Positions 16,736 to 51,326 of a stretch of DNA of 64,000 nt are shown one piece after another. The translations under genes were made by a program, and so were the position numbers. Source of the DNA: Falsiruegeria litorea R37. Its GTDB lineage: Bacteria > Pseudomonadota > Alphaproteobacteria > Rhodobacterales > Rhodobacteraceae. How positions within the stretch are numbered: the stretch's first letter is position 1; every line of letters starts with the position of its first letter. The DNA lies in contig NZ_FWFO01000006.1 of NCBI RefSeq assembly GCF_900172225.1, positions 1 to 64,000 on the forward strand, in the 5' to 3' direction. Below the pieces are notes generated by a model. The model had not been told where the DNA came from and ran no database searches. It saw nothing but the letters and a program-made list of their open reading frames with translations.

Positions 16736-18246
16736 TCCCCATCCGCCACTCCGGCCTGGCGCGCCCTGGCGCGGCGGGCGCGGTAGCTGGGCAAAAGCAC
16801 CAGGATCAGGGCGATCACCAAAAGACCCAAGGTCATCGGGCGTTCCCAGATAAAACCAATCCCGTCATAGAGCTGCATGGACCGCGAGAAGTTGTCCTCG
16901 AGCATGCCGCCAAGGATGAATCCGATCAGCAAAGGTGCAAGCGGGTAGTCGGCGAACTTCAAAGCAGTGGCGCAGATCCCGAAGGCAACCAGAAGCAGCA
17001 ATTCAGTCGCGTTGTTCTGGCCGATGTAAGCCCCCATCAGGGTAAAGAACAAAATGAAGGGGATCAGATAGTTGCGAGGAACGGACAGCACCTTGGCGAT
17101 ATAGGGGATCAACGGCAGGTTCAGGATCAGCAGGATCAGATTACCGATGAACATCGACATGATCACAGCCCAGAAGATCTGCGGCTCATCAATCATCAGG
17201 CGCGGGCCCGGCGTGACGTTCAGCGCCAGCAGCGCACCCAAGAGAATTGCAGTGGTACCAGAACCGGGAATACCCAATGTCAGCAAGGGCACAAACGATC
17301 CGGTGCAGGCTGCGTTGTTTGCCGTTTCAGGCGCTGCAAGACCCTTGATCGAACCTTTGCCGAACTCATCCTGTTCTTCCTTGGTGGCGATATTGCGTTC
17401 GACCGCATAGCCCAGAAAGCTGGCAATCGTTGCACCCGCACCAGGCAGAACTCCGATAAAGAAACCCTGTAGCGATTGGCGACCAATGACTGGCGCGATT
17501 GCTTTGGCCTCGGATCTGCTGATGCGCAGGTCCTTGATCTCTCCACTATTGTCACCGGAAAGATTCTTGGGCTTGAGCACAAGGAAAAGCGCTTCGGGCA
17601 GGGCGAACATCGCCATGGCCAGCGTGATGAACCCAAAGCCAGATTGCAGGTCCATGATCCCCATTGTGAAACGGGGCATGTTGAACAGGGCACCTTCACC
17701 TACGGTTGCCATGATCAAACCCAGCAGGGTCATCAGCAGGGCCTTGGCCACTTGCCCCGTCCCGGCAAAGGCGGCAATTGCTGATAGGCCAACGACCATG
17801 AGTGCAAAATATTCGGCCGAATGGAACAACAACGCAACCGAAGACAACGCTGGCGCAAACACCATCAACAGCAACGCGCCTATGAAGCCGCCCGAAAAGC
17901 TGGCAATTGCGGCAATCGTCAACGCTTTGCCGGCCTTGCCCTGTCGGGCCATCGGGTAGCCATCAAAGCTGCTGGCAACGGTTCCTGCGACCCCCGGCGC
18001 GTTCAACAGGATCGATGAGGTTGAGCCGCCAAAGATCGCGCCGTAATAGACCCCGGCAAGCAGGATCAGCGCGGCAGATGGATCACCAAGTGAGATCGCA
18101 ACCGGGATCATGATGGCGATGATCGACATCGGCCCAAGCCCCGGCAACATGCCGATGAATGTCCCAATCAGACAACCGCCGATGACCATCAGCAGGTTCT
18201 GAAGCGAAAAGGCCGTTTGGAGGCCAATAAGCAGTCCTTCGAGCAT
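16732..18246 (-). CDS. tctA: Tripartite tricarboxylate transporter, large membrane subunit TctA
   Basis: A 504-residue, highly hydrophobic protein with about a dozen membrane segments and the family hallmarks GTFIGMLPGLGPMS (near residue 33), YGAIFGGSTSSILLN and GVLPGAGATIASFLGY. TctA is the large inner-membrane component of TTT transporters, which import carboxylates with a periplasmic binding protein, driven by the ion gradient. The start at 18246 has GGAGG in the end of tctB, one base before whose stop it begins, so tctB and tctA are translationally linked. Nearby regulators suggest a carboxylated substrate, not necessarily citrate. Confidence 0.95.
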   Translation of the reverse strand: MLEGLLIGLQTAFSLQNLLMVIGGCLIGTFIGMLPGLGPMSIIAIMIPVAISLGDPSAALILLAGVYYGAIFGGSTSSILLNAPGVAGTVASSFDGYPMARQGKAGKALTIAAIASFSGGFIGALLLMVFAPALSSVALLFHSAEYFALMVVGLSAIAAFAGTGQVAKALLMTLLGLIMATVGEGALFNMPRFTMGIMDLQSGFGFITLAMAMFALPEALFLVLKPKNLSGDNSGEIKDLRISRSEAKAIAPVIGRQSLQGFFIGVLPGAGATIASFLGYAVERNIATKEEQDEFGKGSIKGLAAPETANNAACTGSFVPLLTLGIPGSGTTAILLGALLALNVTPGPRLMIDEPQIFWAVIMSMFIGNLILLILNLPLIPYIAKVLSVPRNYLIPFILFFTLMGAYIGQNNATELLLLVAFGICATALKFADYPLAPLLIGFILGGMLEDNFSRSMQLYDGIGFIWERPMTLGLLVIALILVLLPSYRARRARARQAGVADGD

Positions 18247-41205: not shown

Positions 41206-42513
41206 TTACAGTTTGTCGCGAAAACTGTACCAGAGCATCGCCAGGATCAGCAGTGGTGACCGCAAAGCTGCCCCGCCAGGAAACCGCTGTGTGGGGACCG
41301 AGGCCATCAGATCAAACCGCTCGGCTTGTCCCGCAATGGCCTCGGCCGCGATCTGACCCGCAAGAGAGGCCATCGCGACGCCATGACCCGAAAACCCCGA
41401 CAAGCTCAAGATGTTGCCTCGCAACCGTTCGAAGTGGGGCATCCGGTTCATCGTGATCCCCAGCGTTCCGCCCCAGGCGTGGTCGATGCGCACGTCGCTC
41501 AGTTGCGGAAAAATCTCGAGCATCGGCACCCGCACCGCGCCCGCAATGTCATCGGGGAACTTGTAGCGATAGCTTTCGGTGCCGCCAAAGAGCAGGCGGT
41601 GGTCATCTGAGAAACGAAAGTAGTTCACCACAAACTTGCTGTCCGCCACCGCGTGGTTGTTGCGGATAAGCTCTTCTTGCCGCTCGGGCCCCAAGGGTTC
41701 GGTCGCCACCACATAGTTGTTGATCGGCATCACCCGAGCCGCGACATGGCCATTCAGGCGGCCCAGGTATCCATTACACCCCAGAACGACGTGATCTGCG
41801 GTAACGGTTGCGGCGTCTGTCTTGACCACGGCAGGCGCGGTTTCTTGCAGAGAGGTCACCCGCGACTGCTCAAAGATCCGAACACCCGCTGCCTCGGCCA
41901 TGCGGGCCAAACCCAGCACAAATTGAAGCGGATCAATGTGGCCCGCGTCCTCAAAGATTCTACCGCCGAAATAAGCAGGCGAATTGACCAGCGACCGCAG
42001 TTCATCCCGATCCAGCGCGCGAATGTTTCTGTACCCGTATTTGTCCTGCAGGTGTTTGACATAGTCGTGGCTGTGTTTGACATAACGCGCCCGGTGATCG
42101 GCATGAATGATACCTGGGTGGAAATCTGCATGCACCAGATCGGATGTGCTGAGGTCACGCACCAGATCCACGGACTGGCGCGCGATCTGCCACAGCGCCT
42201 GCGCGCGGTCTTGGCCGACCATATCCTCAAGCTCGTCCTGCTCAACTCGCTGCCCCTGCCCCACCTGGCCACCGTTGCGACCCGAAGCGCCAAAGCCCAC
42301 GCGCTGCGCCTCGAGCAGGATGACATCATAACCGCGCTGCGCCAGATGAAGAGCACTGCTCAGGCCAGTAAAACCGCCGCCAACAACACAGACATCGCAC
42401 CGCAGATCACCCTTGGCAGGAACACGCAGTTCCATTGTGTTCGCATGCGCGTTCACCGCGTAGTAGGAACCGGGGTACCGGCCCGGTTGATCATTGATGG
42501 TCAGCAGATCCAT
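41206..42513 (-). CDS. FAD-dependent amine oxidase (DAO/PuuB-like), second copy
   Basis: A 435-residue relative of the downstream gene with the same FAD motif (GGGFTG near residue 45), FGASGRNGG and a C-terminal GFSGHGVAMASL segment. It heads the two-gene operon and is divergent from the truncated globin. The N-terminus (MDLLTINDQPGRYPGSYY) is typical of PuuB-like oxidases. The two copies differ clearly, so they are old duplicates with probably different substrates. Confidence 0.88.
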   Translation of the reverse strand: MDLLTINDQPGRYPGSYYAVNAHANTMELRVPAKGDLRCDVCVVGGGFTGLSSALHLAQRGYDVILLEAQRVGFGASGRNGGQVGQGQRVEQDELEDMVGQDRAQALWQIARQSVDLVRDLSTSDLVHADFHPGIIHADHRARYVKHSHDYVKHLQDKYGYRNIRALDRDELRSLVNSPAYFGGRIFEDAGHIDPLQFVLGLARMAEAAGVRIFEQSRVTSLQETAPAVVKTDAATVTADHVVLGCNGYLGRLNGHVAARVMPINNYVVATEPLGPERQEELIRNNHAVADSKFVVNYFRFSDDHRLLFGGTESYRYKFPDDIAGAVRVPMLEIFPQLSDVRIDHAWGGTLGITMNRMPHFERLRGNILSLSGFSGHGVAMASLAGQIAAEAIAGQAERFDLMASVPTQRFPGGAALRSPLLILAMLWYSFRDKL

Positions 42514-42743
42514 GTTGCGTTCTACTCCATGCTCAGGACTGGGTGGTTCTGAGCAAGATTACGCGCCCTGCCTCTTCAAATCCAGATATGATCAAATTAT
42601 TTTTCTGAATTTTTCCTGTATCCTTGGCGCAAGTAATATTTTGATCATTAAATCCCGGCCCGCAACGCACATGTTGGGTCAAAACCCCGCATTGCACCCG
42701 GGCCTCAGTCGCGTCAGTAACCCTTGAACAAAAGGTTTACTCC
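42514..42743. promoter_or_regulatory. AT-rich divergent promoter region
   Basis: A 230-base stretch between the oxidase pair and the globin, noticeably AT-rich around 42583-42660. It should hold both promoters. No clear operator palindrome was found. Confidence 0.4.
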
Positions 42744-43160
42744 ATGACCCCAGACAGATCGCCAAGGGCTGACATCACCCGCTCGGACATTCGTTCGTTG
42801 TTGACCCTTTTCTACGCGCGTGTGCGTGCCGACGAAACCATCGGTCCGATCTTTCGCCATCACATCGGCGACGACGATGCGACATGGGCCGTGCATTTGG
42901 CCAAGATCGAAGATTTCTGGGCCAATGTCATGCTTCGTGACCGGGCCTACCAGGGCAATCCAATGCAAACCCATCTGGGCATGCCCGAGATCAAGTCACA
43001 TCATTTCGACGTCTGGCTAACCCTGTTCGAGCAAACCGCACAAGAGGTTCTGTCACCCGACAAGGCCAAACTATTCGATCTGATGGCGCGGCGCATTGGT
43101 CAATCGCTGCTCATGGGCATGCAGCGAGTGTACTCGGGGCAGGTGCCGAACCTGGGTTAA
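42744..43160 (+). CDS. Group III truncated hemoglobin
   Basis: A 138-residue globin with the group III pattern LLTLFYARVRADETIGPIF, a W-x2-HLAKIEDFW helix, NPMQTHLGMP and HHFDVWLTLF. These small heme proteins bind O2 or NO and may protect against nitrosative or oxidative stress. AAAGG precedes the ATG at 42744. It is divergent from the FAD oxidase pair across a 230-base AT-rich region and its end overlaps pobR convergently by four bases. Confidence 0.9.
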   Translation: MTPDRSPRADITRSDIRSLLTLFYARVRADETIGPIFRHHIGDDDATWAVHLAKIEDFWANVMLRDRAYQGNPMQTHLGMPEIKSHHFDVWLTLFEQTAQEVLSPDKAKLFDLMARRIGQSLLMGMQRVYSGQVPNLG

Positions 43161-44074
43161 CGCGATCCGCCTTGGACTTGGCCCGCGCTCTGTCTGAATG
43201 CGCGTGGAGAAGACCCCGTGCCCGACGCAAAGACGCGCGAGAAGTGCGCAGGATCGGAATATCCAAGTTCATATGCTATTTCAGCTACCGACAAATTGGT
43301 AAAAATCAACTTCCGTCGCGCCTCTCTCAAGACCCGGTCGCGAACAAGGACCGAGGCTGATCGCCCGGTTTCTTGCTTGGTCACCCGATTGAGGTGCGTG
43401 GGCGAGACGGCGAGGGTCTTGGCATACTCTGCGACCTTGAGCTGCCTGCGAAACTCGGCATCAATCAGCGTTTCGAACCGCTGCACCAGCCCACCTGACA
43501 CACGTGGCGCATCCCGCGGTGAAAGGACCTGCATCTGTCGCGCGATCTGCCCCAACAGCAGACCCGACAAAGATCGCAATATCTGTGCGCGTCCAAACCC
43601 TCGATCAAGATACTCGTGATGAAGCGTGCTGATCGCATTGGACAGTTCCTCAGATGCCAGTGAAACAGTCGGCGCCGCTAGAACGGCCCGTACCCCTTCG
43701 CCCACAGGCAACAGTTCGTCCAGCAATTCATTGGTGATTGTCAGAACCCAACCTTCGGTGCCTGGAACAAAGTCGAACCCATGCACGATGCCCTGCGGCA
43801 CGTTCACGAAACACTGGGCCTCGAGCTCTTGGATCGTTCCATCAAGGTTGGCCGTTCCACCACCTGCCTGAATGACCAACACCTGGTGCAGGCGCGCGTG
43901 GCGATGGGGTTTGAGCTCCCAATTGTGCAATTTCGACCGTGTTTCAATCCGTTCGCAGTGCACCACATCCGGCAACTCGGCAGTTTCTCCAAACAGGTTA
44001 TAGGTTTGGATTGTGGTCAGATCACTCTGTTTGCCCATGTTCGAAATATGCAAGTTTCTGCCGGTCCTGTCCAT
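43157..44074 (-). CDS. pobR: AraC-family regulator, PobR-like
   Basis: A 305-residue AraC regulator. It has an N-terminal cupin-like effector domain (ELKPHRHARLHQVLVIQAGGG near residue 54) and two C-terminal helix-turn-helix motifs (VAEYAKTLAVSPTHLNRVTK, then VAEIAYELGYSDPAHFSRVF). PobR senses 4-hydroxybenzoate and switches on pobA, which is divergent 50 bases away. The ATG at 44074 is used, but ATG at 44038 is also possible. Confidence 0.9.
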   Translation of the reverse strand: MDRTGRNLHISNMGKQSDLTTIQTYNLFGETAELPDVVHCERIETRSKLHNWELKPHRHARLHQVLVIQAGGGTANLDGTIQELEAQCFVNVPQGIVHGFDFVPGTEGWVLTITNELLDELLPVGEGVRAVLAAPTVSLASEELSNAISTLHHEYLDRGFGRAQILRSLSGLLLGQIARQMQVLSPRDAPRVSGGLVQRFETLIDAEFRRQLKVAEYAKTLAVSPTHLNRVTKQETGRSASVLVRDRVLREARRKLIFTNLSVAEIAYELGYSDPAHFSRVFASGTGSSPRAFRQSAGQVQGGSR

Positions 44075-44124
44075 TCCCCAGACTCAGCGCCTTGGAAATA
44101 ATCACAGGCTAGGGAGACGCGAAC

Positions 44125-45297
44125 ATGAAAATTCAAGTTGCCATCATTGGCGGTGGCCCCTCGGGGTTGTTGCTGTCGCAGTTGCTTCACGTGCGGGGCA
44201 TAGAAACCATCGTATTGGAAAAACACAGCCGGGACCATGTGCTGGAGCGCATTCGGGCTGGCGTGCTGGAGCACGGGTTTGCGGACCTGATGCGCAAGGC
44301 GCAGTGTGGCGACAGGATGGACGCCGAAGGAGAGATCCACCACGGGTTTTACATCGCACGCAACAATCGCAAGTATCGGGTCGACCTGAGCGGCCAGACC
44401 GATGGAAACTCGGTCGTGGTCTATGGGCAGACCGAGGTGACCCGCGACCTGTATGAGGCGCGCGATCGTATGAACGGAACGGTGCTACACGATGTTAAGG
44501 ACGTCGAACTGCACGACGTGACCAGCGCGGCGCCCCATCTGACCTTTCTCTCAAACGGCGATCGCAAAAGGATCGATTGCGATTTCATTGTCGGGGCGGA
44601 CGGTTTTCACGGGGTCAGCCGCAAGTCCATCCCCGCGGACGTTCTGAAGGAATACGAAAAGGTCTATCCTTTTGGCTGGCTTGGGGTTCTGTCGCGGACA
44701 AAGCCCGTGTCACCAGAATTGATCTATGCCGCCAGCCCGCGCGGGTTTGCGCTCTGCTCCCTGCGCAGCCAGGTGCTCAGTCGCTATTACATTCAGGTTC
44801 CCCTATCCGACAGCGCCGAGGATTGGAGCGACGAGGCCTTTTGGGCCGAACTCAAGCGGCGCCTGCCCGATGAGGTGAGCTCGAACCTGATTACAGGCGC
44901 CTCGATCGAGAAGTCCATCGCACCACTGCGCAGCTACGTGGCCGAACCGATGCGATATGGAAACCTGTTTCTGGCTGGGGATGCCGCGCATATTTTTCCA
45001 CCAACCGGGGCGCGGGGATTGAACTCAGCAGCGTCAGACATCCACTACCTGTATGAGGGTTTTGTCGATCACTATTTGAACGGGGACAGCACCGGGCTGG
45101 ACGCCTATTCAGACCGCGCCCTGGCCCGCGTCTGGAAAGCGCAGAGGTTCTCGTGGATGATGACGTCGATGCTGCACAGCTTTGATGGCGAAAACTCCTA
45201 TGATCGCCGGTTGCGTAAGGTCGAGTTAGACTACCTGTTGTCCTCCGCCAAAGCTCAGGCCGCCTTGGCAGAGAACTACGTGGGCCTGCCTTATTAG
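44125..45297 (+). CDS. pobA: 4-Hydroxybenzoate 3-monooxygenase
   Basis: A 390-residue flavoprotein hydroxylase with all three class A motifs: GGGPSG (residues 9-14), the VGADGFHGVSRK segment and LAGDAAHIFPPTGARGLN. Length and motifs match PobA, which turns 4-hydroxybenzoate, NADPH and O2 into protocatechuate. AGGGAGA precedes the ATG. The regulator is divergent; the reductive dehalogenase gene is convergent after a structured 237-base spacer. Protocatechuate ring-cleavage genes (pca) are not in this window. Confidence 0.96.
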   Translation: MKIQVAIIGGGPSGLLLSQLLHVRGIETIVLEKHSRDHVLERIRAGVLEHGFADLMRKAQCGDRMDAEGEIHHGFYIARNNRKYRVDLSGQTDGNSVVVYGQTEVTRDLYEARDRMNGTVLHDVKDVELHDVTSAAPHLTFLSNGDRKRIDCDFIVGADGFHGVSRKSIPADVLKEYEKVYPFGWLGVLSRTKPVSPELIYAASPRGFALCSLRSQVLSRYYIQVPLSDSAEDWSDEAFWAELKRRLPDEVSSNLITGASIEKSIAPLRSYVAEPMRYGNLFLAGDAAHIFPPTGARGLNSAASDIHYLYEGFVDHYLNGDSTGLDAYSDRALARVWKAQRFSWMMTSMLHSFDGENSYDRRLRKVELDYLLSSAKAQAALAENYVGLPY

Positions 45298-45534
45298 CCC
45301 GGAGACACTCCCGCGCCCGCGCCAACCTGACTGCGTCAGCTCAGCGAACGGCCTTGGGCCGAGCGCCTCGCCTATCGGCTCGGCGCGGCACCGCTTGGCA
45401 AACAGGGAGCGTGTGACATCAAACCTTGGGCGGCAAGCGCCAACCGCCGAGCGAAGCGAGGCCCGGCCCAACGGGAGGAGGTTTTTCTGCCAAGAAAAAT
45501 TGACGACGGGCGGGAGCGCCCCCGATCTCGGACT
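45298..45534. repeat. Structured intergenic region between pobA and the dehalogenase gene
   Basis: This 237-base spacer has several inverted repeats: GCCGAGC/GCTCGGC (45358-45384), a TTTTTCT-GCCA-AGAAAAA hairpin (45482-45499) and short GC arms between. A terminator function for both convergent genes is plausible, and the mosaic of short palindromes is like a REP-type element. No gene is supported. Confidence 0.5.
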
Positions 45535-48500
45535 TCACGCGTCGATTTCGACGATTCCACCAGGTTCCGCGGCGCGGGATTGGCAAGTGATAATTGCCGT
45601 TTCCCGTTGCTTGTTGGACAGAACAAAATCGCGATGCTCTACCTCGCCAGAGATCAAGCCGCATTTGCAGACACCGCAGATCCCGTCTGAGCATTTGATG
45701 TCAACAGGCAACCCGTTCTCGACCATGACATCGGCTGCGGTTTTGTCTGCGGGCACCTCCAGCACTTTACCGGAACGCGCCAATTTCAGTGTGAAGGGAT
45801 GGTTTTCGTATTCAGGCTGTTCCGGCACACTGAAATACTCCAGATGCCGAGCCTCTTCGGGAAAGCCTTGCCGCTCGGCCGCTTGCATTACCCCGTCCAT
45901 GTAGCGATCCGGTCCGCAGGTATACACGTGCCATCCTGTCCGGTAGCCAGCCAACACCTGATCCAAGTCCGCGCGGTTGCCCAGATCCGAGAAATGCAAG
46001 TGCACCCGATCCGACCAGGGAACTATGGCCAGATCTTGCAGATACCCCGCTTCATCCTTCCGGCTGGCAGAGTAGTGCAGTTCGAACTCTGCACCGAGAT
46101 CATGCAGCCGATGAGCAAAGGCGATCATCGGCGTGATCCCGATCCCGCCGCCCATCAGAAACGTCCTGGTAGCGGTCTCTTCCAGTTCGAAATGGTTGAT
46201 CGGCTTAGAGATAAAGACCTTGCGCCCCTCGGTGAAAATTCGATGCAACAGGGCCGATCCCCCGCGCCCTTCCTCCTCGCGCAGCACACCAATTTGATAC
46301 GAGCTGGTATCCGCCGGGTTGCCGGACATGGAATACTGCCGCAGAAACTCGGGCGCGACGACTACGTCCAAATGCGCGCCGGCGGTCCATTCAGGCAACG
46401 GCGATCCGTCGAGGGTAGAGAATTCGTATTTGGTGACCCCTGCGGTCATCTTGTCGACCTTGGTGATCGAGACCTGAATGACCGGCGCATCCCCGTCATT
46501 GGCAAACCGGTGCACCATCGAGGTATCACCGCGCGCCAGCCGCTCCTTGTACTCGTCGGCAGGGATCATTGCCTCATACGCCGCAATCCCGGCCTCGCGG
46601 TCCATTGGAAAGGGATAGGGATAGGGCGGCGGAGCAAGTGGTGCAGGATAAACAGCGAGTGTCTGGTCCTCGTACTTCAGGTCCAGATCCCGCTGCAGAT
46701 CGCGCCGGTTCACGGAATGCTTGGGTTTGCGATAGCCCCCGCTTTCGTCCAGCTCGACGTCCCACCACCACTTCTTGACCTCATTGAGCCCGCCATTGCC
46801 AACGGCGTCATCCAACTTGGCCAACATGGGCGCTGACGATGGAACATTGGTTGCCGCCCATCGGAACGGCGCCTGTGAAAACAGACCTTCCAGGTTCCAC
46901 GGGCACGTTTTCATGCACCGCCCACACATCGCCCCGCCCTGTTGCGTGATCCGGTATGTGGTGCACTTCTGGCTGTCGGACTTCCAGATTTCATAGCCGT
47001 TGAACATCAGCTTGGGGCCGGCGGTGATCGCCCCGGACGGACATTCGCGCGCGCATTTGTTGCACGAGTTGCAAAAGTTCTGCAGGCCAAAGTCGATGGG
47101 CTTGTCGTGCGCCATTGGCATGTCTGTGGTGACCGCGCCAGATTTCAGGCGCGGGCCAAGGTACGGGTTCAAGATAACCTCGCCAATCCGGCTGACCTCT
47201 CCCAAACCGGCCAACAACAGCAGCGGCGGTTGCAAAACCTCACCGTCCATCACCGTGTGCGCCTTGGCGCTATAGCCGAGGTTGCGGATCTGTTGCGCGA
47301 TCACCCCGCCGAGCAGCGAAAACCGCAGATAGGCCCGCATGGATTGGCTGACCGCGATCCAATCATCTCCGCTGGCCCCCTCCATCGTTTCAAACCCCTG
47401 ATCGATGATCATGCTGACAGCTTTGTCATGGGGCGGGTTGATTGGCTGACCTGCCGCGTCATGGCTGTACCAGCTCCATTCCGGGCATCGGCTGGTGCCG
47501 ACAGCATCGACGCCCAGAAAATAACTCGCTGCCTTCAGGTTGTCGGCATTGCGCTGCTCTTGTGTCGGGCGCGCGCCTTGCGGGTTTGCATCACCATCCT
47601 GCAGCAGGACAAAGGCCCCAAGCGCGCGGCGCTGCGCAAAGCTGGGCGCGGATTTGCGGACATAATGCCCGCCCCGTGCGGCCTCTTGATTGCCTTTGCC
47701 CATGTCGCCAAACAAGGAGCGCGCAAACATGTCGGCCCGTTTGGGCACGCGGGCAACGTTGGCCTCATCAATGTAGGTCGTGGGTTTATCCACCCGTTTG
47801 AGCCGCTCAAAGGGGTGTGCCCCATCGACGTAATTTCGCCGAGCAAAGGGATCTCGGTTCAAGGCGGATTTGGCAAACCCTTTGCCCAGCCACCACGCCG
47901 GGCCTTGGGTCTTGAACCAGGGCTGTTCGGACATCGGAGCCAATGGTTGATCGCTGGCCAGGTCCATTTCGGTCGTGATAGCAGCCAGACCAAATCGCGT
48001 GCCAAGCCACGGCGCGATCAGTTCTCCCTGCTCGGCGGTGACCAGTCCTGCAGAGACGGCAAGACGGCCCAGGTCCACTTCGGTCGTGGTCAGGGTATGG
48101 GCGCGCGCCTCGTATCCCAGAAGGCGTATGTAGTTGGCGATCACAACGGCCGTTTCGGTTCCACGTAGACAGGCGCGATGTTCCTGCGCATCCAATATCC
48201 AGTCGCTGCCCGGTTCATCAGATCGAGGATCGCGGGTGTACTCATACAGAAAGACAATCGCGTTCTTATGCCCGTCCACTGGGGTGTCCGGCGCTTCGAT
48301 GCTTTCTTTGAGGTCGGCCATGATCATGTCGATGCCCGAGGCAAAGGTCTTGGTCTGCCGGGTTTTCAACGCATGCGCCAACCGTTCGATGTCGGGGTTT
48401 CTGCGCGGGGCGTCCAGAATGGCATCCGCTTTCAACCGCCCTACCCCCACCATCGAGGCATCATTGTAGTAACCAAACGCCTTGAGGTGATTTGACCGTT

Positions 48501-48750
48501 CTTGCGGATCGCTGGGAATGTCTGATTTTGCCTTGTTCACGAACCCATCTCGGATCGCGTCCATCATCGCCTGGAACTCTCCCATTGCGTTGACGATGCT
48601 TTCGGGGGTTTCAGGCCGCTCAAAACTTAGGGTCGGCATTACTGGCACGCGCGACAATTCTGGCGCCGATGACAGTCGGGACAATCGCTCCAGCGGGTAG
48701 GATCCCATGTGAACCGGCCGGTTCCGATCCGAAAAGAATCGAAGTCCCAT
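45535..48750 (-). CDS. rdhA: Catabolic reductive dehalogenase fused to a ferredoxin reductase module
   Basis: A 1071-residue fusion. Residues 1 to about 700 are a cobalamin-dependent reductive dehalogenase with two related halves, a possible catalytic Y428 and K496, and two [4Fe-4S] sites (C560, C563, C566, C570; C596, C609, C612, C616). Residues 755-970 are an FNR-type reductase (R804-QYS for flavin, GGGIGITP at 867-874, CGPDRYM at 945-951). The tail is a plant-type [2Fe-2S] ferredoxin (C1020, C1025, C1028, C1056). There is no Tat signal, so it should be a soluble, oxygen-tolerant catabolic enzyme like BhbA and NpRdhA, driven directly by NAD(P)H. With pobA convergent next door, a halogenated 4-hydroxybenzoate is the likely substrate. 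GGGAGGG precedes the ATG. Confidence 0.93.
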   Translation of the reverse strand: MGLRFFSDRNRPVHMGSYPLERLSRLSSAPELSRVPVMPTLSFERPETPESIVNAMGEFQAMMDAIRDGFVNKAKSDIPSDPQERSNHLKAFGYYNDASMVGVGRLKADAILDAPRRNPDIERLAHALKTRQTKTFASGIDMIMADLKESIEAPDTPVDGHKNAIVFLYEYTRDPRSDEPGSDWILDAQEHRACLRGTETAVVIANYIRLLGYEARAHTLTTTEVDLGRLAVSAGLVTAEQGELIAPWLGTRFGLAAITTEMDLASDQPLAPMSEQPWFKTQGPAWWLGKGFAKSALNRDPFARRNYVDGAHPFERLKRVDKPTTYIDEANVARVPKRADMFARSLFGDMGKGNQEAARGGHYVRKSAPSFAQRRALGAFVLLQDGDANPQGARPTQEQRNADNLKAASYFLGVDAVGTSRCPEWSWYSHDAAGQPINPPHDKAVSMIIDQGFETMEGASGDDWIAVSQSMRAYLRFSLLGGVIAQQIRNLGYSAKAHTVMDGEVLQPPLLLLAGLGEVSRIGEVILNPYLGPRLKSGAVTTDMPMAHDKPIDFGLQNFCNSCNKCARECPSGAITAGPKLMFNGYEIWKSDSQKCTTYRITQQGGAMCGRCMKTCPWNLEGLFSQAPFRWAATNVPSSAPMLAKLDDAVGNGGLNEVKKWWWDVELDESGGYRKPKHSVNRRDLQRDLDLKYEDQTLAVYPAPLAPPPYPYPFPMDREAGIAAYEAMIPADEYKERLARGDTSMVHRFANDGDAPVIQVSITKVDKMTAGVTKYEFSTLDGSPLPEWTAGAHLDVVVAPEFLRQYSMSGNPADTSSYQIGVLREEEGRGGSALLHRIFTEGRKVFISKPINHFELEETATRTFLMGGGIGITPMIAFAHRLHDLGAEFELHYSASRKDEAGYLQDLAIVPWSDRVHLHFSDLGNRADLDQVLAGYRTGWHVYTCGPDRYMDGVMQAAERQGFPEEARHLEYFSVPEQPEYENHPFTLKLARSGKVLEVPADKTAADVMVENGLPVDIKCSDGICGVCKCGLISGEVEHRDFVLSNKQRETAIITCQSRAAEPGGIVEIDA

Positions 48751-48843
48751 GCGCCATACCCTCCCCGATTGATGACAACCTCATTGGCTTGGCAGAAGAA
48801 GCCGCAGATCAGTTGCCATGTCAACACCTTCGCTCACAACGTT

Positions 48844-48885
48844 CGAAAGATGCAATAACGAAAAAAACCGAAACCATATCGAAAA
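48844..48885. promoter_or_regulatory. CGAAA direct repeats upstream of the DeoR-family gene
   Basis: CGAAA starts at 48844, 48859, 48869 and 48880; the last three repeat about once per helical turn. Tandem TTTCG/CGAAA half-sites are typical for GlpR-like DeoR regulators, and this cluster lies between the divergent dehalogenase and deoR-like genes. Confidence 0.55.
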
Positions 48886-48952
48886 TCCCTTCGTGACATT
48901 CGACGACAGAATGCCTAAGTAGCACGCAGTGAGTCACCAAGGGCTGCCAACC

Positions 48953-49729
48953 ATGGATGCCGAAGAACGACACGACAAAATCCTGGACCTGCTGCGCGAA
49001 CACGAGCGCGTGAACGTTGATGACCTGTCGACGCTCTTTGGCGTTTCCAACCAGACCATTCGGGCCGACCTGCGGGATCTGAGCAATCGGGGTCTGGTCA
49101 CGCGGACCCACGGGGGTGCCGTGAGGGTCGATCAGGTGTCAAACCGCGAATATGCCGAACGGCGCAAACTGAAAGGGCAAGAGAAAGAGGCGATGGGGGT
49201 GCTGTGTGCCTCGTTAATCCCCGATACCTGCTCGGTCAGTTTGAATATCGGCACATCAACCGAACAGGTCGCCAAGGCGCTGTCGCATCACAAGGATCTG
49301 ACCGTCCTGTCCAACAACATCAACATCATCAACATCCTGATCGGCACCCAATCCAAAGAGCTGATCTTGGTCGGCGGTGCGGTCCGTCAAAGCGATGGTG
49401 CCATTGTAGGTGAGGATGCGGTCGAATTCATCGAACGCTACAAGGTGGACTATGCGGTCATCGGGGCCTCGGCCCTGGATATGGATGGCTCGGTTCTGGA
49501 TTTTGACACCCGCGAGGTTTCGGTGGCCCGCGCGATCCTGCGCAATTCGCGGATCAAGATCCTGGTTTGTGATAGCTCAAAATTCGAACGCTCGGCACCG
49601 ATCCGCATCTGCGCTGTTCAGGACCTGGACTATGTGGTGACCGACCAGATGCCCCCGATGGAATTTATTGAAGCAGCCCGCGCAGGGCAGACAGAGATTT
49701 TGGTATTGGACGAGCTGAATGCAGGTTGA
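48953..49729 (+). CDS. glpR: DeoR-family regulator, GlpR-like
   Basis: A 258-residue DeoR regulator with an N-terminal helix-turn-helix (ERHDKILDLLREHERVNVDD, then FGVSNQTIRADLRDL; THGGA motif) and a C-terminal sugar-phosphate-sensing domain (LNIGTSTEQVAKAL, LVGGAVR). It overlaps glpD by 11 bases, so it is most likely the repressor of glycerol-3-phosphate use, relieved by glycerol-3-phosphate. The ATG at 48953 has AAGGG upstream; a GTG at 48929 lacks one. Confidence 0.9.
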   Translation: MDAEERHDKILDLLREHERVNVDDLSTLFGVSNQTIRADLRDLSNRGLVTRTHGGAVRVDQVSNREYAERRKLKGQEKEAMGVLCASLIPDTCSVSLNIGTSTEQVAKALSHHKDLTVLSNNINIINILIGTQSKELILVGGAVRQSDGAIVGEDAVEFIERYKVDYAVIGASALDMDGSVLDFDTREVSVARAILRNSRIKILVCDSSKFERSAPIRICAVQDLDYVVTDQMPPMEFIEAARAGQTEILVLDELNAG

Positions 49730-51326
49730 CGCTAAACGCTCCGAAGGCGAGCCGCTGGATATTTTCATCATCGGCGGTGGGATCAACGGCTGTGGCATTG
49801 CCCGCGACGCGGCAGGCCGTGGCTTTTCGGTCGCTCTGGCCGAAATGAACGACCTGGCATCGGCGACGTCTTCGGCCTCGACCAAGCTGTTCCACGGTGG
49901 GTTGCGGTATCTGGAATTTCTCGAGTTTCGCCTGGTCCGAGAGGCCCTGATTGAACGCGAAGTTCTGCTGAAGGCCATGCCCCACATAAGCTGGCCCTTG
50001 CGGTTTGTCGTGCCCTATCACAAGGACATGCGGTTCGAGAGCGACACACCCGTATCCCGCCTGTTGGGCACGGTAATGCCCTGGATGAAAGGCCGCCGCC
50101 CCAGTTGGTTGGTGCGGCTCGGCCTGTTTTTGTATGACACGATGGGGGGGCGTGAAATCCTGCCGTCGACCAAGACGCTGGATCTGAAAACAGACCCGGC
50201 TGGACGTCCCTTGCAGACCAAGTTCCAGAAGGCGTTTGAATATTCGGACTGTTGGATTCAGGACGCACGTCTGGTGGTATTGAACGCCCGCGATGCGCAA
50301 GCCCGTGGCGCGCAGATCATGACGCGCACCAAAGTTGTCAGCGCCGAACGCACAGATGACCTGTGGGCCATAACGACCGAGGACATGGCGACCGGAAATC
50401 GCCATACCACTCACGCCAAAATGCTGATCAACGCAGGCGGTCCATGGGTGGGCGACATCATCCACAACACGCTGCGCGTCAACTCGACCGAGGGTGTGCG
50501 GCTGGTGCGTGGAAGCCACATCGTAACCCGTAAACTGTTCGAGCACGACAAGGCCTATTTCTTTCAAGGCACCGATGGGCGGATCATCTTTGCTATTCCC
50601 TATGAGGGCGACTTTACCCTGATCGGCACCACGGATGCAGATCACGCTGATGCCAGCACAAAACCCGAATGCACCGAGGCCGAGCAGAAATATCTGCTCA
50701 ACTTCGCCTCGCAATATTTCGCCACTTCGCTGAGTGTCGATGACGTGGTCTGGAGCTATTCCGGCGTGCGCCCGCTCTATGACGACGGTGCAAAGTCTGC
50801 GACGGCGGCGACGCGGGAATACGTGCTGACGCTGGACCAATCCGACGGGGCGGCGCTGTTGAATGTCTTTGGCGGCAAGATCACCACATACCGCAAACTG
50901 GCAGAGGCAGCGTTGGACAAGGTAGCCAGGGTTTTCCCCGACACCGAACCCAACTGGACCGAAGGCGTCCCCCTGCCCGGCGGCGATTTCCCGGTCGAGG
51001 GGCTGGACAGCCTTATCGCCTCGACCCGAGCGCAATATCCGTTCCTGGATCAGACCTGGGCCACGCGGTTGGTGCGCGCCTATGGCACCGAAGTCCCCGA
51101 GGTTTTGGGGAATGCGGCCACAGAGCAAGCCCTTGGTCGTGATTTCGGTGCGACCCTGACCGAACGCGAAATCAACTGGTGCATCGACAACGAATGGGTG
51201 CGTTCTGCCGACGACATGCTGTGGCGCCGGTCCAAGCTTGGTTTGCGTCTGACCTCGGATCAGGCCGCCGCAGTTGAGGCATACATAACCAACGCGCTGC
51301 AGCCGAAACCGGCGAAAGCCAGCTGA
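49719..51326 (+). CDS. glpD: Aerobic glycerol-3-phosphate dehydrogenase
   Basis: A 535-residue FAD enzyme with [19 protein letters not shown] near residue 17, [21 protein letters not shown] and a C-terminal [12 protein letters not shown] segment, all GlpD features. It oxidises glycerol-3-phosphate to dihydroxyacetone phosphate at the inner membrane and passes electrons to quinone. It is translationally coupled to its regulator. With the ugp operon about 18 kb away, it gives a route from phospholipid-derived diesters to central carbon. Confidence 0.95.

Follow-up and report, generated by a model that had tools for sequence, protein, structure and literature searches.

The window, a 64,000-nucleotide stretch of the Falsiruegeria litorea R37 genome, encodes an intact catabolic reductive dehalogenase fused to its own reductase (rdhA; 45535-48750, minus strand), and sequence evidence confirms this protein as a member of an already characterised enzyme type. 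By analogy with its relatives, it is very probably a cytoplasmic, NADPH-driven enzyme of the catabolic “RdhA fused to reductase” subfamily that acts on several bromophenolics, with products that can include 4-hydroxybenzoate. Next to rdhA lies pobA, which encodes 4-hydroxybenzoate 3-monooxygenase. Both the enzyme type and its occurrence across roseobacters have been published before; the recurrence of this neighbour in other genomes is a small addition.

The rdhA open reading frame is uninterrupted, begins with ATG, and encodes 1071 amino acids. An earlier note had described a one-piece protein comprising a dehalogenase, a flavin reductase, and a ferredoxin, and this description is upheld by the intact frame, by the NCBIfam family model, and by matches to the NpRdhA and 2pia structures. 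Specifically, the TIGR02486 model scores 204 bits (cut-off 160), with the match split over two stretches. The first is the catalytic reductive-dehalogenase domain (residues 443-651; 46798-47424, minus strand), which contains Y474/K536 and R600, and the second is a putative vestigial, N-terminal copy of this domain (47941-48510, minus strand; E 1.7e-11, alone below the family cut-off). A vestigial-plus-catalytic duplication of this kind has been described for catabolic RdhAs in the available part of PMC10463259. The NpRdhA structures align with residues 160-729 (E about 1e-159), while phthalate dioxygenase reductase (2pia; E 1.5e-50) and the reductase portions of self-sufficient P450s align with residues 758-1062 (45565-46479, minus strand), pointing to a module composed of flavin and NAD(P)H domains and a ferredoxin. 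The fold of RdhA is settled by these sequence matches to solved structures. Pfam likewise recognises a double [4Fe-4S] region at residues 560-619 and a Fer2 [2Fe-2S] ferredoxin at residues 991-1060, the latter being the plant-type, C-terminal ferredoxin (45571-45780, minus strand) with C1020, C1025, C1028, and C1056. Among 13 aligned relatives, including one (L146) that lacks the reductase, these four cysteines are nearly invariant, and the eight cysteines of the two [4Fe-4S] motifs (C560, C563, C566, and C570; C596, C609, C612, and C616; 46903-47073, minus strand) are invariant. Inspection of the N-terminus by eye revealed no twin-arginine signal.

The catalytic residues are also present. In the available text of PMC10463259, residues F291, S422, M423, Y426, K488, and R552 of NpRdhA are reported to be conserved in JtRdhA. 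Counted along the structure-match alignment, they correspond to F342, S470, M471, Y474, K536, and R600 of the window’s RdhA. All six are invariant in 13 aligned sequences, and five of the letters were confirmed in the printed sequence. The earlier note had instead named Y428 and K496 as the catalytic pair, and had set their alignment with the NpRdhA pair as a test of its claim. When this alignment was made, the named residues failed it: both align elsewhere, with Y428 falling opposite Y379 of NpRdhA (hand count) and not opposite the catalytic Y426, while the true pair, Y474/K536, is in place.

JtRdhA of Jhaorihella thermophila, a marine bacterium, serves as the functional guide. It was characterised in 2023 as an NADPH-dependent, oxygen-tolerant enzyme with brominated and iodinated phenols as substrates and chlorinated phenols as inhibitors (PMC10463259, available part). 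Its best substrate was 3,5-dibromo-4-hydroxybenzoate, equalled by 3-bromo-4-hydroxyphenylacetate, with 2,6-dibromophenol being slower. The chlorinated analogues tested, including chlorinated 4-hydroxybenzoates, were inhibitors that were not turned over, according to the same text. The proposal that chlorinated 4-hydroxybenzoates serve as substrates thus finds no footing in JtRdhA, and because JtRdhA does not turn over the analogues tested, chlorinated substrates are less likely for the window’s RdhA as well. The authors of PMC10463259 themselves caution, in the part available, that a single example cannot tell whether all such fusions behave like JtRdhA.

The domain architecture, the conserved residues, the neighbouring genes, and the presence of pcaH are observed in the window and its genome; cofactors, electron donor, substrate range, and oxygen tolerance are taken over, by homology, from the JtRdhA paper. 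On this basis, NADPH would reduce the flavin, and electrons would then flow through the [2Fe-2S] ferredoxin and the two [4Fe-4S] clusters to base-off cobalamin, which would remove bromine (or iodine) ortho to the phenolic hydroxyl. The proton would be supplied by Y474 together with K536, a Tyr-Lys/Arg dyad by homology to JtRdhA. 4-Hydroxybenzoate, one possible product here, could then be consumed by PobA and enter the protocatechuate 3,4-dioxygenase route. The oxygen tolerance of JtRdhA may not extend to the window’s RdhA, as a short-type relative, Ros_A3X954, lost its activity in oxygen. Elsewhere in the genome, a gene for the protocatechuate 3,4-dioxygenase beta subunit (pcaH) was identified (G000:C4; 365 bits, cut-off 296), as was a CobN-like cobaltochelatase match (G000:C2:310118-313411) that is in two pieces, one of which has an internal TGA. 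We infer a route through PobA in this organism, and a link between RdhA and PobA is plausible.

That a genuine PobA is encoded next door is well founded, as the 390-aa product of pobA (44125-45297, plus strand) scores 658 bits against TIGR02360 (cut-off 539) over residues 1-390 of 390 and matches p-hydroxybenzoate hydroxylase structures over the same residues. A co-directional rdhA-pobA cluster, as seen in bromoxynil-type clusters, was looked for in the window, and the two genes proved to be convergent. Their 3' ends face each other across 237 bases, and they therefore have no common transcript from one promoter. Divergent from pobA is a gene for an AraC-type regulator (43157-44074, minus strand) with HTH_18 and AraC_binding domains. 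This gene is probably pobR, a name given by position only: its best NCBIfam match, HpaA, scores 158 bits against a cut-off of 275, and there is no PobR model among the 25 matches listed. A bacterial-globin-like gene (42744-43160) directly adjoins pobR; its Pfam score is barely above the cut-off, and it is kept in both close relatives. On the 5' side of rdhA, a DeoR/GlpR-type regulator gene lies at 48929 and is divergent from rdhA. Adjoining rdhA, no gene was recognised as a dedicated regulator or transporter.

The upstream region of rdhA contains a 14-base near-palindrome (48812-48825), which includes TTGACA on the minus strand and is possibly an operator or a -35 box. It sits in a well-conserved part of the rdhA-glpR gap, and among 191 upstream regions, some of them from a contig fetched twice, the window and its two closest relatives (L036 and L148) are the only ones to have it without a mismatch. 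As the other 188 were no better than shuffles, a family-wide rdhA operator was rejected. An operator common to the pobR-pobA intergenic region and the rdhA promoter was also considered and discarded. The best common match in the window, 14 of 16 bases, was reached in none of 60 mononucleotide shuffles, but in the two closest relatives its site on the rdhA side is not preserved (alignment by eye). Because of this, it was not retained as evidence of PobR control, and the earlier suggestion that PobR regulates rdhA is left unsupported. A search of the window found no riboswitch at the Rfam gathering cut-off. The Ruegeria Cis8 sRNA family (Rfam RF02646) has a match at 17081-17208, with 94 bits against a cut-off of 58.

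Comparison with Tropicibacter sp. R16_0 (L148), which has the closest named homologue among the best 80 (92% identity), is informative with regard to the locus. By blastn, the R16_0 flanks align to 42002-43159 and 45534-50998 of the window, with rdhA intact and pobRA missing. The pobRA block (43160-45533), which is present in the window and in another genome of its genus (G073), is replaced in R16_0 by 48 bases. R16_0 does possess a pobA elsewhere in its genome, beyond the 19 kb retrieved around rdhA, and it is 59% identical to that of the window. As R16_0 is nearer to G073 (83-84% DNA identity) than to the window’s genome (78-81%), loss of pobRA in R16_0 is the simpler history. R16_0 has kept rdhA without its pobRA neighbour, and pobRA is dispensable at this locus.

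Fused rdhA genes are common in the family. They were found in 112 of the 295 family genomes in the sample (294 genera; the window’s own counted) at 54-100% identity, a count that includes G269 (in-frame stop), G099 (split frame), and G102 (runs to the contig end), and excludes the truncated type of G033 as well as the fragments in G096, G160, and G212. Among the 112 carriers, only G269 and G099 show frame breaks. Across the class, a match with an E value no higher than 1e-100 was obtained in 31 of 385 genomes; nine of these were full-length fusions by coverage (five in the window’s family), with the rest being mostly of the truncated type. A scan of genome contigs produced at least 539 relatives, the best 80 being led by R16_0 and including many from Ruegeria, and eight of 72,556 plasmid records matched over at least 80% of RdhA, among them pBHB, the plasmid of BhbA. 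The neighbourhoods of rdhA vary: at the thresholds used, no neighbour family occurs in more than 13 of the 112 loci, and for this reason a conserved neighbourhood was dropped as a clue to substrate. The commonest neighbour is a MarR-type regulator (13 of 112 loci, nine of the 13 upstream and in the same direction; for example, L119 2988-3455). These neighbour counts are approximate, as open reading frames were picked greedily and rdhA was missed in four of the 112 loci; tblastn recovered it in all 112. On the Jannaschia M317 plasmid (L235), too, rdhA is flanked by a divergent MarR gene.

The association of pobA with rdhA was examined by tblastn on fetched loci with flanks of up to 8 kb; for 23 of the 112 family loci, a contig end shortened the flanks. 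Within about 8 kb, pobA was found in three of the 112 family loci, always adjoining rdhA: it is convergent in G073, as in the window; divergent in G197; and in tandem in G227, where 78 of the 86 intervening bases are N. Two of 80 named loci, which partly represent the same contigs, also possess it, and both belong to alphaproteobacterial MAGs. In L217 (13-4472; the G227 contig), the tandem pair spans the N run, and in L223 (8001-12408), the genes are 16 bases apart. On plasmids, pobA is about 3.4 kb from rdhA in pOM-1 of Nitratireductor OM-1, pBHB of Comamonas 7D-2 has a partial match (residues 120-389) immediately preceding ligAB and bhbA, and no pobA was found in the stretch fetched around rdhA of the Jannaschia M317 plasmid. 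Beyond the family, 26 genomes of the class-wide sample matched, and in the 20 of their loci that were fetched (four fused, 16 of the truncated type) there was no pobA near rdhA.

With the window’s genus set aside, pobA is the next gene in two genera versus approximately 0.04 expected (P about 0.0009), and in one if G227 is dropped because of the N run between its two genes. Within 8 kb, the same two genera compare with 0.40 expected, which is not significant (P 0.06); when the distance is extended to 20 kb, there are at least five (G197, G227, G089, G108, and G169) versus 0.90 expected (P 0.002). PobA also scores over its cut-off in 85 of the 112 rdhA carriers versus 106 of 183 non-carriers (Fisher P 0.0017), with 27 carriers having none. 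None of these statistics allows for phylogeny or genome size, and it was the window that prompted the question. The adjacency and co-occurrence tests suggest a functional rdhA-pobA link in some lineages, albeit short of proof. A literature search for such pairing in roseobacters, judged by titles and the openings of abstracts, found none, which is a weak negative, since the original BhbA paper also failed to surface.

What, then, does pobA contribute? There is an even chance that the enzyme mainly debrominates mixed bromophenolics, whether to detoxify them, to release bromide, or to open up several carbon skeletons for use, and that its pobA neighbour is incidental. The variable contexts of rdhA, the many phenols accepted by JtRdhA (PMC10463259, available part), and the 27 carriers devoid of PobA all agree with such a role, and it is the recurrence of pobA adjacency and clustering that it leaves unaccounted for. 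A rival reading is a dedicated unit, in which rdhA and pobRA support growth on bromo-4-hydroxybenzoates, as in the bromoxynil route of Comamonas, and have been selected to stay together. The adjacent pairs in G197 and G227, the closely spaced tandem of L223, the same cluster on pBHB (with ligAB) and pOM-1, and the higher frequency of PobA among rdhA carriers argue for this possibility, which we nevertheless consider doubtful. The genes are convergent in the window, R16_0 lacks pobRA at the locus and has only a distant pobA elsewhere, one of the three family loci with pobA nearby is from the window’s own genus, the class-wide loci have none, the 8-kb test is not significant, and a single genus is left once G227 is removed. 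The bromoxynil-type route put forward in the earlier note therefore stands in part: the enzyme class, self-sufficiency as judged by sequence, a likely ortho-dehalogenation of phenolics, PobA, and pcaH are consistent with it, but the convergent genes, the R16_0 locus, and the PobA-negative carriers are not.

It is quite improbable that PobA attacks the halogenated 4-hydroxybenzoate directly while RdhA serves other substrates. PHBH1 and PHBH2 of Pigmentiphaga do catalyse the first step of 3-bromo-4-hydroxybenzoate degradation (PMC12016517, available part), but this precedent comes from a different bacterium. Debromination of several bromophenolics by RdhA, with 4-hydroxybenzoate as one possible product, remains our preferred reading of the enzyme. 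A broader proposal is that roseobacters and their relatives have repeatedly brought pobA beside the debrominase, in convergent, divergent, or tandem order, and that in some lineages, including this one, the pair is a naturally occurring marine equivalent of the bromoxynil route, supporting growth on bromo-4-hydroxybenzoates of biological origin; we regard this as rather unlikely. If the pair does work as a pathway, brominated 4-hydroxybenzoates could be a carbon source for the host and a few of its relatives, and marine bromine cycling would be tied to ordinary aromatic catabolism. The recurrent pobA neighbour marks the lineages of interest: G197, L223, and perhaps G227.

The marine setting emphasised in the earlier note is reasonable for a host from a largely marine group (judged from relatives), but it is not new, since both JtRdhA (PMC10463259) and Ros_A3X954 (PMC13101508) have been published, and the available part of the former includes a tree with the RdhA of Ruegeria pomeroyi and “Tropicibacter phthalicicus”. 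Putative bhbA homologues are likewise described as widespread in the Roseobacter clade in the available part of PMC13101508. There, Ros_A3X954 of Roseobacter sp. MED193 is reported as a 2,6-dibromophenol debrominase that, unlike JtRdhA, is inactivated by oxygen. Judged from the cysteine positions given in that text, it is of the short type without a fused reductase, and in this it differs from the window’s RdhA; MED193 also carries a fused-type RdhA (L216). The window’s own genome encodes a second, short RdhA-like protein of about 422 aa (G000:C1; locus L002, 922-2190), with cysteine motifs CDICTKCADACP and CAICMRVCP, the same as those reported for Ros_A3X954 in the accessible text.

Among the characterised systems, JtRdhA shares the fusion of RdhA to a phthalate-dioxygenase-reductase-like module, the duplicated cobalamin domain, the absence of a TAT signal, the active-site residues, and a marine host (PMC10463259, available part). 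Activity was measured for JtRdhA alone, and the likeness is based on the NpRdhA residues, the common architecture, and the relatives. NpRdhA of Nitratireductor pacificus (PDB 6zxu, 4ras) has the same catalytic core and catalytic residues, but, unlike the window’s RdhA, has no fused reductase. Finally, BhbA of Comamonas sp. 7D-2, encoded on pBHB, is a full-length homologue (49.6% identity over residues 3-1070), and its cluster also includes a partial pobA match together with ligAB. BhbA, however, comes from contaminated soil, is plasmid-borne, and is co-directional with 4,5-dioxygenase genes, whereas in the window pobA is convergent with rdhA and the 3,4-dioxygenase is encoded elsewhere in the genome.
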